Shown: positions 2,910-9,506 of the stretch, in pieces | Position numbering within the stretch: position 1 is the stretch's first letter | How the letters are laid out: each line of letters begins with the position of its first letter | Source: Oscillatoria nigro-viridis PCC 7112 | GTDB lineage: Bacteria; Cyanobacteriota; Cyanobacteriia; Cyanobacteriales; Microcoleaceae | Direction of reading: 5' to 3' | NCBI RefSeq assembly: GCF_000317475.1 | Contig: NC_019729.1 | Coordinates: 5,532,501 to 5,596,500 of the forward strand | DNA length: 64,000 nt | Translations under genes and position numbers: made by a program | The notes under the pieces: model-generated | What the model saw: the letters and a program-made list of their open reading frames with translations, nothing else | Database searches by the model: none | What the model was told of the DNA's origin: nothing

Positions 2910-4687
2910 GTAACTGCTCACCGCAACTGCGTTGCAGTATCGCAAATGGAGCCACAAATGGTGATGGAAAAATTTGCGCGTTTTGTAGAAACGGGAAATT
3001 TCCCAAGCTCAAAATGCAGGCTGCCACTGAAAATAGCTACCGTCACAAGCCCACAATTAAGTTCAACTGAACTGTAAACCCGGAGGACTACGACCTGCTA
3101 AACAAAGTAACTGATAAAGTTGCGCGATCGCTTCATGTCCTTGCAACCGAACTGTTTCGAGAAAGCTGAACATTTGAGCCACCAGTTGAGCGCCCCAATC
3201 GCTGCGCGCCCCGCCAGTTACTTTCCGATGTACAACTACTGGACGTAAAGCTCTTTCGGCATCATTGTTATCAGGTTTCACTTGTGGATAATCTAAAAAG
3301 GTGAACCACTCTGTCCAATGACGTTGCATTCGGTTGGTTAATCGTTGGGCATCGGCAGGCCATCCCGTAACTGGTGGATTGTGCAAAACTGCTTGCAGTT
3401 GAGCTTCAATTACCGAACGATTGCCAGCGAGTTGAAGGCAACTCAATTTCCCAGCATGATAGTCCCTGTGCAAAGTTCTGGCAGTGGTTAAAATCTCACC
3501 CACGCCTTGGGCAAACAAACGATTAGCTTCAAATCGACTGAGCTTGAGTGCTTCTAAATCTCGTTCCAGATGTGTTAAACATTTCTGTTTCGCCGCTGCT
3601 GATTGTCGGTTGTAAGCACTGAAACAATCGCTGCTGAGAATGCCTTCAAAGTTTTGTCCCAATAACTGCTGAAGTTCGGCACTACTCCGAGTCGGAGCTA
3701 ATAATAGTACACAAACTCGATCGCTGGTGGCTACCCACAACCAATACTTGATGCCATCAATACAGTAAGTTGTTTCATCTACGCAGCGCACTCCCGGCTG
3801 TTGCACGTAGGTGAGCCATTGTTGATAAATTGGCTGCAAACTTTGCTGAAAGTAGCGCTGCATTTTGGCTAAACTTCCTTGAGAGATGGGTACTCCTAAG
3901 ACGTGTTCCACAAAATATTCTTGTTTTCTCCAGGGTAAGTTACCACCATATCCCAGCCAACCCACCACGCTACATAACCTGCTACCATAGCTAAACCCTT
4001 CGATGACGGAGGGTGGTAGTTGAGAGTATCCCGACCAGCCACAATCAACACACTGACATAATGGGCGACGGTATTCTCTGATTTCTACTGGTTGCTCTAC
4101 CAATTCGGCTACTTGTTGCACTTTGGTTGGTGTTGTTGTGATCGCCTCAACTCCTGCCTGACAAACTGGACATCGCTCGGGTTGTAACTCAATGATGTGG
4201 TCGGGTTCGCCAAATCCATTTCGTGTCTTGCCCGGATGGTCGTATTTTGGACCGCGTTTTTTTCCTTTTTTTCGCTTGCTTTTGTCGCTAGGTTTTTTAA
4301 TTTGGTCGGCTGATGGAGGGATAGAACTGTTTGATGAGGAGCGGTTTTTCAGCTTGGATAATGCTTCTTTTAACTGTTCGATTTCCTGTTGTTGTTCTTC
4401 GATAAGCTGCTGTTTTTCTGCCAGTTTTCGCTGTTGCTGTTTGAGTTGCTGTTGTTGCTTGAGCAGCCATTCTCCTAATGACAGCATTGTCTGTGCCATC
4501 TGCTCTACTGCGATGGCTATCTCTGGTGGTTCGCTGGTCAGTGCTGGTGTTTTAAGCATGAAAGCTACTATACTCTATTTTCGTCGGCTTTGGCTCAACC
4601 CCTTACTACACTTGCAACAGATGCAACAGAGGCCAGCTCGATTGCCATCATTAGCAATACCGCAACGCAGTTGCGGTGAGCAGTTAC
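2910..4687 (-). mobile_element. Complete IS66-family insertion sequence (ISBst12-like, transposase only)
   Basis: The element is 1778 bp. Both ends begin with GTAACTGCTCACCGCAACTG and stay identical for 26 bp as inverted repeats (2910-2935 and the complement of 4662-4687), with imperfect similarity further in. It is flanked by an exact 8-bp target duplication, gataattt at 2902-2909 and 4688-4695. GTAA ends and 8-bp duplications are both typical of IS66. Only the large transposase gene is present, without the accessory tnpA and tnpB of classical IS66, matching the ISBst12 subgroup. The right end lies 42 bp upstream of the start of the disrupted glycosyltransferase gene. Clean ends and an intact gene point to a recent insertion. 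Confidence 0.95.
3063..4559 (-). CDS. tnpC: IS66-family transposase (TnpC type)
   Basis: A 498-residue DDE transposase. It starts with a glutamine/lysine-rich coiled coil (about 28-72), then a basic linker (KKPSDKSKRKKGKKRGPKY), a zinc-binding segment (CPVCQAG near 135 and CQCVDCGWSG near 165) and the IS66 catalytic domain from about 180 (CVDETTYCIDGIKYWLWV; LSSDCFSAYN; late glutamate in NNDAERALRPVVVHRKV). The C-terminus has the usual SFLETVRLQGHEAIAQLY segment. The reading frame is uninterrupted and of family length, so the enzyme is probably functional. It is the only gene of the IS and ends about 150 bp inside the left terminus. Confidence 0.95.
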   Translation of the reverse strand: MLKTPALTSEPPEIAIAVEQMAQTMLSLGEWLLKQQQQLKQQQRKLAEKQQLIEEQQQEIEQLKEALSKLKNRSSSNSSIPPSADQIKKPSDKSKRKKGKKRGPKYDHPGKTRNGFGEPDHIIELQPERCPVCQAGVEAITTTPTKVQQVAELVEQPVEIREYRRPLCQCVDCGWSGYSQLPPSVIEGFSYGSRLCSVVGWLGYGGNLPWRKQEYFVEHVLGVPISQGSLAKMQRYFQQSLQPIYQQWLTYVQQPGVRCVDETTYCIDGIKYWLWVATSDRVCVLLLAPTRSSAELQQLLGQNFEGILSSDCFSAYNRQSAAAKQKCLTHLERDLEALKLSRFEANRLFAQGVGEILTTARTLHRDYHAGKLSCLQLAGNRSVIEAQLQAVLHNPPVTGWPADAQRLTNRMQRHWTEWFTFLDYPQVKPDNNDAERALRPVVVHRKVTGGARSDWGAQLVAQMFSFLETVRLQGHEAIAQLYQLLCLAGRSPPGLQFS

Positions 4688-4729: not shown

Positions 4730-4980
4730 TTGAAATACGATTGGGCATTAGGTCGCAAAATAGACCTAGATGGAATTGACCGCGATGCACAACTCGGCAA
4801 ATGCCCCCGCCACGTCCTGCGGGCCCTCAGAGACAGCTTAAATGCCACCGTTCACGCCCCGGATGGCGAAGCGATATCGTTGAGTGACAAGCTGCGATCG
4901 AAAATTTCTTCTAAACCCGAACATTAACCGCCGCCCGCAAATTGTCCGAGCAAGTCAGCAGCGACGACGTGATATTTTTT
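4730..4980 (+). pseudogene. 5' part of a disrupted GT-B glycosyltransferase gene
   Basis: A TTG start at 4730 follows an AAGGAG Shine-Dalgarno (4718-4723) at good spacing. The product begins LKYDWALGRKIDLDGIDRD and runs to TAA at 4925-4927. Coding then continues in the frame one base over: from 4930 it reads AARKLSEQVSSDDVIFF up to 4980. That is a net one-base deletion near 4924-4927. At 4980/4981 the gene is cut by the tnpB element, and the rest resumes at 8703. Joining TTT TTT to GGT AAC gives VIFF-GNGEDIGIP with no further frame change. The gene is therefore broken twice, and the IS66 upstream may also have separated it from its promoter. Confidence 0.8.
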
Positions 4981-6125
4981 GACACTCCCCTGCCTGAAGG
5001 CGAGGGGATTCTAGGATCGGCCAGTCGATTTGCTCCAAAGGATGCTACCACCAGCGAGTAGAGCTCGGTCTGTCCCCCAGCGTGAATTCCGGTGTGCCCC
5101 ACCGTATTTAAATTGATTTTTGCTTGCTTGAAACCCTTTACCAAAATGTTTCTCGCGGCGTTGTGGTCGCGATCTAATATCGTTCCACAACCGCAAATAT
5201 GGGTTCGAGTTGATAGGGTTTTCTTGACCTGGTTGCCACAATTTGAACACTCCTGGGATGTGTATTGTGGTGGAATAGCAATTACGGTTTTGCCGTACAC
5301 TTTCCCAAAATACTCCAACCACTGAGCAAACTGCGACCACGCTGCATCGCTAATTGATTTAGCAAGCTTGTGGTTTTTGACCATGTTTCGCACCTGAAGG
5401 TTTTCGTAAGCTACAAAATCGTTAGATTTTACCGCGCACAATGCCGTCTTTATGGCAAAGTCTTTACGCTGCCTGCTGACCTTTAGGTGCTTTCTTCCTA
5501 ACTTGTTAATCGCTTTCTTTCGATTTTTAGACCCTTTCTTTTTCCGAGAGACTCGCTTTTGCAATCTCTTCAAAGCTTTTTCGCTTTTTCGGAGATAACG
5601 GGGATTGGGAACTGTTTCGCCGTCGCTGTCAGTATAGAAGTGGTTCAACCCTACGTCTATTCCGATAACTTTACCAGTCGGAACAAGTTCCTCTTTTCGC
5701 TCTACGTTGATGCAAATTTGTGCGTAGTATCCGTCGGCACGGCGCACAACTCTAATTCGCTTAATTTCATCAGGTGCATAAAAATGCAAGTCTCGACTAC
5801 CGATTAATTTGAACTTCCCAGCGGCAAAACCATCTTTAAACGTCAAGCATCTTTTGTCGTGAGAAAGTGCCCAGCCGGATTGTTTGTACTCAACGGCTCG
5901 GGTATGCTTTTTGAACTGTGGAAATCCCTTTTTTCCTGGTTTTTTAGCTTGGCAATTAGCAAAGAAACGTTGAATGGCAAAAATAGCACGTTCCGCCGAA
6001 GCTTGACGTGCTGTTGAGTTAAGCTTGCCTGCCCATTCAAACTCTTTCGCCATGAGGGCGCATTGTTTGTACAGGTCTACTAACTTAATTCCTTGATTGT
6101 CTATCCAATGTCTCAGAGTTTTATT
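4911..6125 (-). CDS. tnpB: TnpB RNA-guided endonuclease, exon 2 (main body) of an intron-split gene
   Basis: About 404 residues starting NKTLRHWIDNQG, directly after the group II intron 3' end at 6126; exon 1 is at 8501-8587. All three RuvC acidic residues are in place: Asp in GIDVGLNHFYTD, Glu in FVAYENLQVRNM, and Asp in CGTILDRDHNAARN. The zinc ribbon is CSNCGNQ...HICGCG. Spliced length is about 433 residues. The frame has no stop inside the element and reads about 22 codons into the flanking glycosyltransferase DNA before TAG at 4911. The apparent upstream extension to 6203 (TTG start) is intron domain V/VI sequence, not protein. TnpB nucleases use an RNA from the element end to cut DNA and favour element retention; no TnpA is present here. 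Confidence 0.9.
   Translation of the reverse strand, partial: NKTLRHWIDNQGIKLVDLYKQCALMAKEFEWAGKLNSTARQASAERAIFAIQRFFANCQAKKPGKKGFPQFKKHTRAVEYKQSGWALSHDKRCLTFKDGFAAGKFKLIGSRDLHFYAPDEIKRIRVVRRADGYYAQICINVERKEELVPTGKVIGIDVGLNHFYTDSDGETVPNPRYLRKSEKALKRLQKRVSRKKKGSKNRKKAINKLGRKHLKVSRQRKDFAIKTALCAVKSNDFVAYENLQVRNMVKNHKLAKSISDAAWSQFAQWLEYFGKVYGKTVIAIPPQYTSQECSNCGNQVKKTLSTRTHICGCGTILDRDHNAARNILVKGFKQAKINLNTVGHTGIHAGGQTELYSLVVASFGANRLADPRIPSPSGRGVSKNITSSLLTCSDNLRAAVNVRV
4982..5110 (-). ncRNA. Candidate right end / omega-RNA region of the tnpB element
   Basis: In characterised tnpB elements the guide RNA comes from the 3' end of tnpB and the right end of the element, with its guide reading into the flanking DNA. 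Here that region holds the terminal hairpin at about 4986-5008 and overlaps the tnpB coding end. The predicted guide would begin at 4981 reading leftward (TTTTTT complement) into the glycosyltransferase gene. Position is by analogy only; no RNA ends can be read from the sequence. Confidence 0.35.
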
Positions 6126-6167
6126 GTCGGGTAGGAGAGCATACGTCGCCGCATCTCTCCCCCCTAA

Positions 6168-6201
6168 GAACCGTACTTGACACTTTCGCATCATACGGCT
6201 C
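6168..6201 (-). ncRNA. Group II intron domain V (catalytic hairpin)
   Basis: A 34-nt segment beginning GAGCCGTATGATGCGAAAG and ending GTACGGTTC, with the strongly conserved lower stem, AGC-type catalytic face and GAAA tetraloop of group II domain V. The maturase stop codon TGA (6200-6202) overlaps its first bases. Confidence 0.92.
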
Positions 6202-7900
6202 AAGCCTCCAGAACCTCAGAACTTTTACCCGTATGTACGTGCTTGTGGCAGGTGAGGTGTAGGTGGACTAGGTTGTTTTCCCTATTAGTTCCCCCATCTT
6301 TCACTTGCATTTTGTGGTGGGTGTGTAGCTTTTCTCCATTGAACAGGTGTTCACCGCATACGGGGCATCTCCAGCTTTGGCTCTGGGCTACATTGAATAG
6401 CTTTGAACCTTTGGCAAAATATGTTTTTCCGTAGTTAGTTCTACGTTTTTCCCAGTATTCGGTAAGGTTGGGGTCATCAGGGGACGCCGTTCCTTTGATT
6501 TTGACGTGGCGGGTTATTGGTAAGTCTCCGAGTTTCGTTAGGATTAGGTTTTTCTTCCTCCCATTTCTGTCTTCAACTGCTGCATGAAAGTTCCATTTCC
6601 TGCCATTGACAGTGATGAAATACTTTCCTGCCACCCACTTCTTCCCCTTGTTTGGATGTCTGCTTAGTGACCATTTCCAGATTGCCTGAAAAATTTGGTG
6701 GTCAACATAGCTGAACACTTCGCTACTTACCCCGTGCTTATAGTAGTTTCCCCACCCCCTGATTCGGGGGTTTAGGTATTGGATAACTGCTTCCGGGCTG
6801 GCGTGTTTATTGGTTTTTAGCCATTCCCGAATTTCTCTAAGGAATAGTTTGACTTTTTCCTTTTGAGGTTTTACTAGACAGCTTTCCTGGAAGTGTCGGA
6901 CATTAAATCCCAGAAAGTTGAATCCTTGTTCTATATGAACAATATTGGTTTTGTCCTCATTTAATTCCAGTCCTCTTGTCTTGAGGAGTTCCTTTACCGA
7001 GGGAATTATTTCCTCAATATCCTCTTTTGTTTCGGCGGTGATAATGAAGTCGTCAGCGTATCTGACAAATCCATATTTAGGCGCTCTAGGAGACTTGTTC
7101 TTCCCTTGCCTTTTCTTAAATTGACTTAGGAATTGTTCTATTCCGTCCAGCGCTATATTAGCTAAAAGGGGTGAGATTATCCCCCCTTGTGGTGTTCCGC
7201 TTTTCGTTTCGTGGAATATCTCAGATTCTACATAACCTGCTTTCAGCCACTGTTTAATTAACTCTCTGCCTGGTATTTCTCCAATAGTTTTGAGTATGAA
7301 GTTGTGGCTGATGTTGTCGAATGCGCCTTTGATATCTGCGTCTAATACCCACCTGTCATTCCCTTGTTTATTAAGGCGAATCCAAGAGTGTTCTATGGCA
7401 TCATGACAGCTTCTACCTGGTCTGAAACCGTAGCTGCTACCCTCCATTCGGGCTTCCCAACTAGGTTCCAGTGCATTCTTGATTACTGCTTGTGCTATAC
7501 GGTTTTTAACTGTTGGAATCCCTAATGGTCTTTGTTTTCCATTGGCTTTTGGAATATATACCCTTCTAGCGGGTTGAGCTTTCCACAGGGTGTAATCCTT
7601 CATTTCTTTGACGAGTTTTACTCTTTCGGAGGGGGTGGTTGCCGTCTGACCGTCTATGCCAGCCGTCTTTTTCCCCTCGTTTTCTTGAGTTACTCTCCGC
7701 ACTGACAGTAGTAGGTTGGAGTAGCTACATATCATCAGTTTCATAAGGCTGCGAACCTTATTCCACTGTCCGTTCTGGGTTGCTCGATAAATTCTCCGTC
7801 TCAGGTTTTTAATCCGTCTATTCACAAGTTTCCAGTTGATGGATTCCCATGTTCTCAACGGTTCCTTCGTTCCGATGTCATTACTGACCCTATCTTTCAC
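6200..7900 (-). CDS. ltrA: Group II intron-encoded reverse transcriptase/maturase with HNH endonuclease
   Basis: A 566-residue intron-encoded protein with the full domain set. The RT fingers/palm contain NGKQRPLGIPTV, YGFRPGRSCHDA, the SGTPQGGIISPLLANI block and the catalytic YADD in FVRYADDFIITA (about 275). The maturase X domain follows (WLKTNKHASPEAVIQYLNPRIRGWGNYYKH, about 345-400). The C-terminal HNH endonuclease has CPVCGEHLF...HTHHKMQVKDGG...HLTCHKHVH (about 510-560). It needs no partner other than the intron RNA for splicing and target-primed integration. The frame is intact with no truncation. It ends on the first bases of domain V, as usual for domain IV-encoded proteins. Confidence 0.96.
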   Translation of the reverse strand: MKDRVSNDIGTKEPLRTWESINWKLVNRRIKNLRRRIYRATQNGQWNKVRSLMKLMICSYSNLLLSVRRVTQENEGKKTAGIDGQTATTPSERVKLVKEMKDYTLWKAQPARRVYIPKANGKQRPLGIPTVKNRIAQAVIKNALEPSWEARMEGSSYGFRPGRSCHDAIEHSWIRLNKQGNDRWVLDADIKGAFDNISHNFILKTIGEIPGRELIKQWLKAGYVESEIFHETKSGTPQGGIISPLLANIALDGIEQFLSQFKKRQGKNKSPRAPKYGFVRYADDFIITAETKEDIEEIIPSVKELLKTRGLELNEDKTNIVHIEQGFNFLGFNVRHFQESCLVKPQKEKVKLFLREIREWLKTNKHASPEAVIQYLNPRIRGWGNYYKHGVSSEVFSYVDHQIFQAIWKWSLSRHPNKGKKWVAGKYFITVNGRKWNFHAAVEDRNGRKKNLILTKLGDLPITRHVKIKGTASPDDPNLTEYWEKRRTNYGKTYFAKGSKLFNVAQSQSWRCPVCGEHLFNGEKLHTHHKMQVKDGGTNRENNLVHLHLTCHKHVHTGKSSEVLEA

Positions 7901-8500
7901 GTCGGTTCAATTCCTTTACTTTGATTTATCGCTGAAGACCTACCAGAAGTCTGCCACCTTTTGGTGAGAGGCAAATTTTGAACCCCTATCCAGGGCGTTA
8001 CCCTTGGCTTTCGCTTTTTCTGGCATCCTTTACCCCCTCGGCAGTTCCGTCTTCCTTACGGTTGACCTACTTGGGCTTTCGACCTTACCCAAGAGCTAGT
8101 GGGGTTTACCGTGTTTCGTGTATGTGACCTGCGAGAGGTTCGGGTTCCATCTATACTCCGACAGGGGTTTTACTCCTTCATCGTTGATGTCCGAACTTCA
8201 ACGACTTACCTGCTTGCCTTTTGGCATGGCGTATCAGCTCATTTCGCCATTGTCATTTCACGGAGCTTACGATGATTCACTTTCGTTAACCCTTACCTCC
8301 CTTTCCCTTGCCGGATATATCAAACGAGCTGTCCGTATTCCAGCTTTTGTGCCTTGCATTCCCTTAGTTTCATTACTTACTATCTCGGTAGGCGGGGTAC
8401 TTGACCCTTTTACATGGGAATATGGGGAAGGAGTCCCATAGAGGAGACGGCTCCTCAGTCTTTAGTGCTGATGCACCTACACACGACTTTCACGTCGCAC

Positions 8501-8587
8501 TCGCACAAATTGAGCCGTCCGAATCATGTCGTCGATGATTCGATATTGCTCTGCTTTGCCCTTTAATTTAAACTCTAATACTATCAT
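8501..8587 (-). CDS. tnpB: TnpB RNA-guided endonuclease, exon 1 (29 codons)
   Basis: ATG at 8587 opens a reading frame of exactly 29 codons, MIVLEFKLKGKAEQYRIIDD and on to TAQFVR, the typical N-terminus of cyanobacterial TnpB proteins. It ends with CGA at 8501, directly before the intron 5' end GTGCGAC. After splicing the next codon is AAT at 6125 (NKTLRHW), giving an uninterrupted TnpB. Unspliced, translation would run into the intron, so TnpB production should depend on intron splicing. Confidence 0.88.
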
Positions 8588-8702
8588 TGCAATAGTTTAC
8601 CACTTTTACATAAACTTTTATTTGCCAGCTTGCATCTTTAACGAATCTTCACAGTTTTATTAAAGCCGTCCTGTAAGGACGGGGCTTTAGACCCAGTTTC
8701 TT

Positions 8703-9506
8703 GGTAACGGCGAGGACATTGGCATTCCAGTGGCGGCGGTTTGCGGGGCTAAGCCCGATCGTCCGAAAATTGTTGTACATTTCCACAATATCGATCGGCT
8801 GCGCGGCCGCCTCGCCCTAAAACTATTTGGTTTGGCTGACAAAATAGAGGTGTTCATGGCCTGCGCCAGCCCTCAAACTGACTTCCTCCGCAGTTATTTA
8901 GCTTTACCTGAATCCCGGATTTTAGTGCATCTAGACCAGACAGACACCCAGTTTTTCACACCCGGTCCCGTTTCTGGCGATAAAAAGCGGCAAACGGTTG
9001 TTAGCGTCGGATTAGAAAAGCGCGACTACCGACTCTTAGCAGCAGCAACTGCTGACTTAGATGTTGACGTAAAAATTAGCGGTTTTTCTAAAGATGCCAA
9101 AGCTTTATCGCAAGCTTTCCCCGATACTATGCCAGAAAATATGTCCCGCAAATTCTACGAATGGCCGGATTTAGTGCAGCTTTACCGCGATGCAGACGTA
9201 ATTGCAGTTTGTTTGGCGGACAATAAATATGCTGCTGGAGTGCAGGGTTTGCTAGAAGCAATGGCCTGCAAGCGGCCGGTCGTCATTACTCGGACTCAAG
9301 GTATGGTCGATTATTTAGCGGCCCCGGATATTGCCAAAGTGGTAGATGTGGGAGATGCAGCAGGTTTGCGCGAGGCGATCGTCCATTTGCAAAAAAATCC
9401 TCAAGAAGCTGAATCTCAAGCGCAGCGGGGCTGCGAAATGGTGGTGAACCAGCACAGCAGCGAACCTTATGTCGATGTTTTGGCCCAGAAGCTGCGATCG
9501 ATCTAA
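8703..9506 (+). pseudogene. 3' part of the disrupted GT-B glycosyltransferase gene
   Basis: Open frame from GGT AAC GGC GAG (GNGEDIGIPVAAVCGAKP) to TAA at 9504-9506, 267 residues. It contains the C-terminal Rossmann half of a family 4-like glycosyltransferase: KIVVHFHNIDRLRGRLALKLFG, the SVGLEKRDYRLLAAAT start of the nucleotide-sugar domain, and the EX7E-like segment AAGVQGLLEAMACKRPVVITR. A GTG at 8730 could give an independent product, but that would lack most of the N-terminal acceptor domain, so activity is unlikely. The 5' part lies at 4730-4980. The sugar donor cannot be told. Confidence 0.8.

Follow-up and report, generated by a model that had tools for sequence, protein, structure and literature searches.

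A group II intron and its probable homing among tnpB genes of the cyanobacterium Oscillatoria nigro-viridis PCC 7112

How did a glycosyltransferase gene come to contain a tnpB element that is itself split by a group II intron? We found this arrangement in Oscillatoria nigro-viridis PCC 7112, whose genome assembly (8.27 Mb, 6 contigs, 100% complete) belongs to a family that includes Okeania. We analyzed a stretch of 64,000 nucleotides (nt) of contig NC_019729.1, hereafter the window. An earlier note on this DNA had described the three-level nest and proposed a relative order of events: the tnpB element entered the host gene, and the intron entered tnpB either before or after that. From comparisons of sequences, we consider it very probable that the tnpB element landed in the glycosyltransferase gene and that the intron is a mobile group II intron that is specialized for one site in tnpB and retrohomes among tnpB genes.

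The intron is 2375 bp long and lies on the reverse strand (6126..8500). Its domains V and VI (6126..6203, reverse strand) match Rfam family RF00029 with 60.8 bits and fold at -39.5 kcal/mol (z = -5.96). A single open frame (6200..7900, reverse strand) encodes an intron protein of 566 amino acids with RVT_N, RVT_1, GIIM, and HNH domains. The ends that were first proposed from the window's letters are upheld by the Rfam match and by four further copies of the intron, which fix both boundaries; the 5' boundary is GUGCGAC at 8500. The exon repeats GTGCGA there, so we also considered a 5' end at 8506, but two of the other copies (L004 and L005) differ at these bases. Excision joins codon 29 of tnpB, the end of exon 1 (8501..8587, reverse strand; last residues FVR), in frame to an asparagine, as had been claimed; translation and comparison with the other copies agree on this. 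Exon 2 (4911..6125, reverse strand) resumes at 6125 downwards with NKTLRHWID and matches OrfB_IS605 and the TNB zinc ribbon.

Evidence that the intron is mobile comes from the rest of the genome. The intron is present at five places, which the earlier note had overlooked; at each of them, a TnpB zinc ribbon follows about 0.8 kb downstream. All five copies are 2375 bp long; four are identical and one (L005) differs by one base. In all five, the insertion lies between the same codons of tnpB (...IRTA[QR]F[VI]R/N, where the slash marks the junction). The tnpB genes themselves are much less similar. Relative to the window copy (L001), the 3' exons of L003 and L002 are 90% and 85% identical, and those of L004 and L005 are about 65% identical; the overall span is 64–90%. 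On the 5' side, L001 and L002 share 98% identity. Identical introns in tnpB genes whose 3' exons differ by 10–36% show that these tnpB lineages had already split when the intron reached them, and its spread among them looks like repeated homing. This extends the earlier order of events at one point; the intron may have entered this copy before or after the element landed.

An alternative is a single entry into one tnpB element, after which the intron was only a passenger of transposition. The genome does have tnpA genes, and in a second intron lineage, described below, this route is likely. In the window's lineage, no pair of elements is nearly identical over its full length: the introns differ by at most one base while the 3' exons differ by 10–36%. 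As the sole route, this is already refuted for L004, for L005, and for the group of L001–L003, and we consider it very improbable overall. We give almost no credence to the five copies being an assembly artefact. Identical repeats can be misplaced, and two copies in another genome are indeed broken, one of them at a gap; but the five copies have different flanks and their own element ends, the genome is in just 6 contigs, and other assemblies have the intron at this site too.

In those other assemblies, the closest intron proteins that we found are from Okeania sp. SIO2C9 (91% identity), Microseira wollei NIES-4236 (92%, over 460 residues only), and UBA11372 (88%, over 280 residues only). The next closest protein, among the candidates scored, is just 73% identical. 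Also, genome G118 contains two tnpB genes that are joined to the intron's first 125–127 nt, with 98% identity over 125 nt. The intron breaks off at an identical position in both G118 copies; one runs into a gap and the other into the end of a contig, which fits a collapsed repeat. All 10 copies that we found in five genomes (five in the window's genome and five in four other cyanobacterial genomes) share the same tnpB codon, with the 3' exon seen for the window genome's five copies and the Okeania copy. The four proteins of this lineage that were placed in a phylogenetic tree form one clade (support 100/99). This tree omits 20 of the 72 protein rows, which were duplicates, near-duplicates, or fragments.

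Beyond these genomes, we found no further member of the lineage in a phylum-wide sample of 386 genomes, searched with the intron's first 600 nt and with two candidates scored in each. At the phylum-sample loci that we inspected (L263/L287, L268, L273, and L276), there was no tnpB at the junction. An exact 25-base pattern had no matches in viral contigs. Among plasmids, 361 records matched but none over 80% of the query, and for the best match, from Leptolyngbya boryana, an incomplete gene table lists no adjoining tnpB or iscB.

What would direct the intron to this codon? Group II introns recognize targets by pairing of their exon-binding sites (EBS) with intron-binding sites (IBS) in the exon. 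Our candidate for EBS1 is UCGGAC (intron nt 307–312; 8189..8194, reverse strand), which lies within a hairpin and ranked first of 600 positions for three exon types. Our candidate for EBS2 is GAAAUGAG (intron nt 256–263; 8238..8245, reverse strand), which tied for first of 600 positions and would form 6–8 of 8 pairs at the FVR/N tnpB sites that we compared. The position that ties with it, at intron nt 40, was set aside: we prefer 256 because it is near EBS1, because it appears to sit in a hairpin loop with compensatory changes in the stem, and because it pairs poorly in introns from other sites. We identified this stem by eye in the alignment; the local minimum-energy fold does not contain it. 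We rejected another candidate for EBS2, at intron nt 588: it pairs fairly well but directly precedes the open frame of the intron protein, a place where no EBS2 would be expected. In the window, the predicted IBS1 and IBS2 are in tnpB exon 1 (8501..8514, reverse strand) and would form 12 of 14 pairs with EBS1 and EBS2.

Related introns with other targets point the same way. At the aligned EBS1 columns, pairing with the differing targets is 6/6 for the UBA11372 intron, 6/6 for an inner intron of the Trichodesmium type discussed below (L057), 5/6 for Okeania, and 4/6 for Microseira. Two others (L056 and L054) have only 4/6 at these columns; moving the site by one or two bases gives 6/6 and 5/6. 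Judging by these alignments, EBS1 changes along with the target.

We then compared occupied and empty sites. There are 107 TNB matches in the genome; we left out 5 below the cut-off and read 102 loci, of which 76 gave an open reading frame with the expected zinc-ribbon pattern and 26 did not. Twenty-four had an IRTxxFxR site, and we added the five occupied genes by hand. Of these 29 recognized sites, the 5 occupied ones have 12–13 of 14 pairs and the 24 empty ones have 10–11. For sites with at least 12 pairs, this is 5/5 versus 0/24, or p = 8e-6 by our own arithmetic, with the EBS positions having been chosen using these exons. An expanded tnpB family (IRTVQFIR/NKALRFWM; 22 copies among L127–L165) has TGC instead of the CTC of occupied sites, and the intron site is empty.

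The other half of the question is how the tnpB element came to be in the glycosyltransferase gene. On the forward strand, the 5' part of this gene (4730..4978) is defined by alignment with relatives, with a TTG start at 4730 that we infer, and the 3' part (8704..9506) matches Pfam glycosyl transferase families and is unbroken in relatives. A search for homologues in 39 genomes, including the window's own, gave matches at some level in 28. Twelve alignments, from 12 genomes, cross the insertion point; in all 12 the tnpB element is absent and the gene is unbroken there. Such intact homologues had been proposed as the check on the joins. Together with the intron boundaries, these 12 empty sites bear out the nest of glycosyltransferase, tnpB element, and intron, but they correct the outer join by 3 bp. 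All 12 give a host sequence that is three bases shorter than the one first restored, so the element spans 4979..8703, not 4982..8703, and is 3 bp longer on its left. By the refuting condition that the earlier note had set, the restored motif VIFFGNGED falls as well, although the nest does not: of the three relatives that we translated, one reads VIFCNGED and two read VIFCTGED. The separate one-base frameshift in the host gene was correctly spotted, as all 12 alignments have one more base at 4925–4928; a TAA stop is also there, at 4925–4927.

With these limits, the element is a 3725-bp IS200/IS605-type element (4979..8703, reverse strand, including the intron) with tnpB only (IS1341-type), as supported by the empty sites and by matching ends in four related elements. 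We found no match to Y1_Tnp (the tnpA domain) within 4979–8703; the genome has 18 Y1_Tnp matches, one of them below the cut-off. Read along the tnpB strand, the ends are GTTAC/CAAG...GTGTCAA/AAAATATC. The element inserted 3' of TTAC (8704..8707, reverse strand, as seen in the sequence and the empty site) and ends in TCAA on the right, without a target duplication. TTAC and TCAA are features of IS608. All five intron-bearing elements keep their own ends: the other four have TTAC/CAAG on the left (TTGAC/CAAA in L005) and TGTCAA on the right, so the tetranucleotide is TTAC in 4 of 5 and TGAC in L005. Both ends of the window's element have subterminal hairpins, with modest z-scores for their single-stranded DNA folds. 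The left hairpin (8661..8689, reverse strand) folds at -8.7 kcal/mol (z = -1.97; 5 of 200 shuffles equal it), and the right one (4986..5008, reverse strand), followed by TGTCAA, folds at -9.2 kcal/mol (z = -1.70; 16 of 200). Given the empty-site sequence and the known biology of TnpB, the presumed guide, taken from the bases that adjoin the element's right end, would match the sequence next to TTAC in the glycosyltransferase allele that lacks the element. The window copy no longer has the tnpB stop codon that L002 and L003 retain (4911–5100), and its frame leaves the element and enters the host gene.

A third insertion, which the earlier note had also overlooked, is nearby. An IS66-family element (2910..4687, reverse strand), with a DDE_Tnp_IS66 domain, 39-bp inverted ends, and an 8-bp duplication (GATAATTT), lies 42 bp before the presumed start of the glycosyltransferase; sequence and synteny show that relatives are contiguous there. 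The glycosyltransferase region has been struck three times. The same gene is also split by about 3 kb elsewhere in its length in a relative (G255; L094 and L109).

Is the window's intron alone in using such genes? A second, distant lineage is present in four other tnpB genes of this genome (L203–L206), at ...VVWN-G/, which is 4 nt from the first site. Three of these copies are identical over 2488 nt and one is a base shorter; the 3' boundary is uncertain by one base. A tnpA gene is nearby in 3 of the 4 loci. The exons of L204 and L205 do not differ, nor do 576 bases upstream; farther out the two do not align. This element was therefore probably moved or duplicated together with its intron, as the passenger route would have it.

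Genes for IscB (RRXRR and HNH domains), likewise an RNA-guided nuclease of transposons, are interrupted by an intron that belongs to a separate branch of the window intron's clade. Its two copies in the window's genome (L207 and L208), both with HEARO RNA upstream, are identical over 2401 bp, and their 3' exons are 69% alike. Genome G219 has the same arrangement (L243), with 30 differences and HEARO upstream, and G152 has an intron with an IscB 3' exon (L240). The IscB introns form one clade (100/100). Further relatives are in tnpB at other sites: L230 (PRF/K), L241 (CRKSY/, again just before an asparagine, with the 5' exon only), and L260. L254, with a TnpB-like stretch 54 nt from the intron, is an ambiguous case.

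In the window's genome, 11 of 27 GIIM matches interrupt tnpB or iscB. The other classified matches, nine copies of a third lineage and six more, do not, and L222 was left unclassified. The nine copies (L212–L220) are at varied sites, and at none of their junctions is there a tnpB or iscB gene; for L214 and L216, a stretch with weak resemblance to tnpB lies several hundred bases upstream. Of the 60 intron loci numbered L202–L261, 57 have a domain V match and were classified. L222, L225, and L247 have no such match; L225, from Microseira, has tnpB on its 5' side.

Several observations weigh against our reading or limit it. First, L001–L003 are mosaic: the window copy's 5' flank (200 nt) is 96–98% identical to that of L002, and the first ~350 nt on its 3' side are 98–100% identical to L003. 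L001–L003 may share one homing event that was spread by recombination, and therefore we count at least three independent insertions (the L001–L003 group, L004, and L005), not five. The mosaic flanks could also be taken to mean that exchange between tnpB genes, through homologous recombination or gene conversion, was the intron's main route of spread in place of retrohoming. We consider that improbable. The 3' exons of L004 and L005 are only about 65% identical to the others, and the bases that adjoin the intron (-18 to -1) differ in these two copies, with no conversion tract visible. Second, the tnpB of L005 contains a stop codon and the tnpB of L001 lacks its own stop, so the spliced product is not always a normal TnpB. 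Third, the EBS positions were picked partly with these exons in view. Also empty are 40 other positions in tnpB loci that have at least 12 of 14 pairs and an A at +1; at least 12 of these belong to a single repeated site. Three strict matches to the pattern outside tnpB likewise hold no intron. Pairing between EBS and IBS is not sufficient for insertion.

Fourth, just 7 of the 38 relatives that we fetched interrupt tnpB or iscB (L224, L225, L230, L240, L241, L243, and L260), with the host seen on one side only for L225, L240, and L241. Others are in reverse transcriptase genes (L226–L228, L233, and L251) or in another intron (L244–L246 and L248), and the rest are at sites without a named host gene, apart from L232, whose host we take to be a DUF1016-like gene. 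These 38 (L224–L261) were taken from a longer list, by best scores first and then by selection. Because only these seven are in tnpB or iscB, the preference belongs to certain lineages and not to the whole clade. L237 and L238, in genome G264, encode identical intron proteins of the window intron's clade at two places without tnpB or iscB. Fifth, the order- and phylum-wide searches scored 2–3 candidates per genome, so the copy numbers are lower bounds. Finally, splicing and retrohoming of the window's intron are deduced from near-identical introns in diverged exons.

With these points in mind, we propose that the locus arose as follows. A tnpB-only element of the IS200/IS605 type inserted 3' of TTAC in the glycosyltransferase gene, with the ends that the empty sites show. 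The intron would have reverse-spliced into tnpB between codons 29 and 30, after this landing or earlier in the element's history. Its EBS1 and EBS2 would pair with the stretch of tnpB that codes for the motif AxF[VI]R, and the insertion lies directly before a conserved asparagine. The intron would be transcribed with tnpB, and its reverse transcriptase/maturase would splice it and leave a joined tnpB mRNA. The ribonucleoprotein could then reverse-splice into empty tnpB copies that pair well, with the HNH domain cutting the other strand and the intron being copied in. Close copies of tnpB also exchange flanks by recombination, as the mosaic exons show. Genes for TnpB and IscB are numerous, mobile, and dispensable, which may make them a safe niche that travels.

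How does this compare to known systems? RmInt1 is a mobile group II intron that homes to a fixed site in the insertion sequence ISRm2011-2 of Sinorhizobium meliloti (PMC4238363). As in the window, an insertion-sequence gene is the natural home, and splicing is needed for the insertion sequence's protein (PMC4238363). However, RmInt1 is a IIB3/class D intron whose host is an IS630-Tc1 transposase (PMC4238363), and its protein has no endonuclease domain (PMC8914252). The window's intron protein has an HNH domain, so the intron is not of the RmInt1-like class D. Also, the hosts of the window's lineage are RNA-guided nucleases of IS200/IS605-type elements, from diverged tnpB subfamilies that are entered at one codon. 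The IStron likewise combines a ribozyme intron with an IS605-type element, but its intron is of group I and makes up the entire element (PMC4227781). Here a self-moving group II intron lies inside the tnpB frame. At Rfam's gathering scores, the window gives a match to a group II intron but none to a group I intron, so this is not an IStron.

In Trichodesmium, the inner intron of a twintron splices in vivo (PMC4649490). L244–L246 and L248 carry the twintron's host sequence as printed in that paper, exactly or nearly, with a 5'-end spacing of 153 versus 154 nt. Their proteins are 60–63% identical to the window's, and Trichodesmium-type proteins group with the tnpB lineage at 92/79 (L245 is outside the tree). 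By our own reading, the inner intron is Tr.e.I8. It differs in its host, which is another group II intron; the window's intron is in tnpB and is not part of a twintron. In Thermosynechococcus elongatus, families of introns that are defined by their EBS home to matching IBS sites, with retrohoming after EBS change (PMC2882425). These are other introns with other targets, and the available part of PMC2882425 describes no specialization on tnpB or iscB. Among the open-licence matches listed, no title or beginning of an abstract tells of repeated homing of group II introns into tnpB or iscB. Introns that home into insertion sequences are already known from RmInt1.

The intron might instead be kept because splicing regulates TnpB or limits the spread of the element, rather than being only a homing parasite. 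Separate lineages have used tnpB and iscB repeatedly, and a similar proposal was made for RmInt1 in ISRm2011-2 (PMC4238363). Against this, the L005 copy is in a tnpB with a stop codon, and near-identical introns indicate recent spread instead of long maintenance. We consider this role unlikely. A broader idea, which we offer tentatively as a speculation, is that tnpB and iscB are a homing niche for several lineages of cyanobacterial group II introns, two of them distant, that have converged on the same conserved codons. Splicing would then gate production of the RNA-guided nuclease, and intron and nuclease would spread together, as a group II counterpart to the IStron.

A survey of prokaryotic introns asks why CL-type introns have increased in cyanobacteria, seemingly at places unrelated to terminators (PMC8919778). 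Homing into tnpB and iscB offers one possible answer for at least some lineages; the window intron itself has no CL class assigned. The natural pairs of intron and target, with their predicted EBS/IBS contacts, could be used in mobility assays. Type V CRISPR nucleases may have evolved from TnpB-like nucleases (PMC11043419), and our finding links the mobility of group II introns with the biology of TnpB-like nucleases. It suggests that, for some introns, tnpB and iscB genes are a preferred home.

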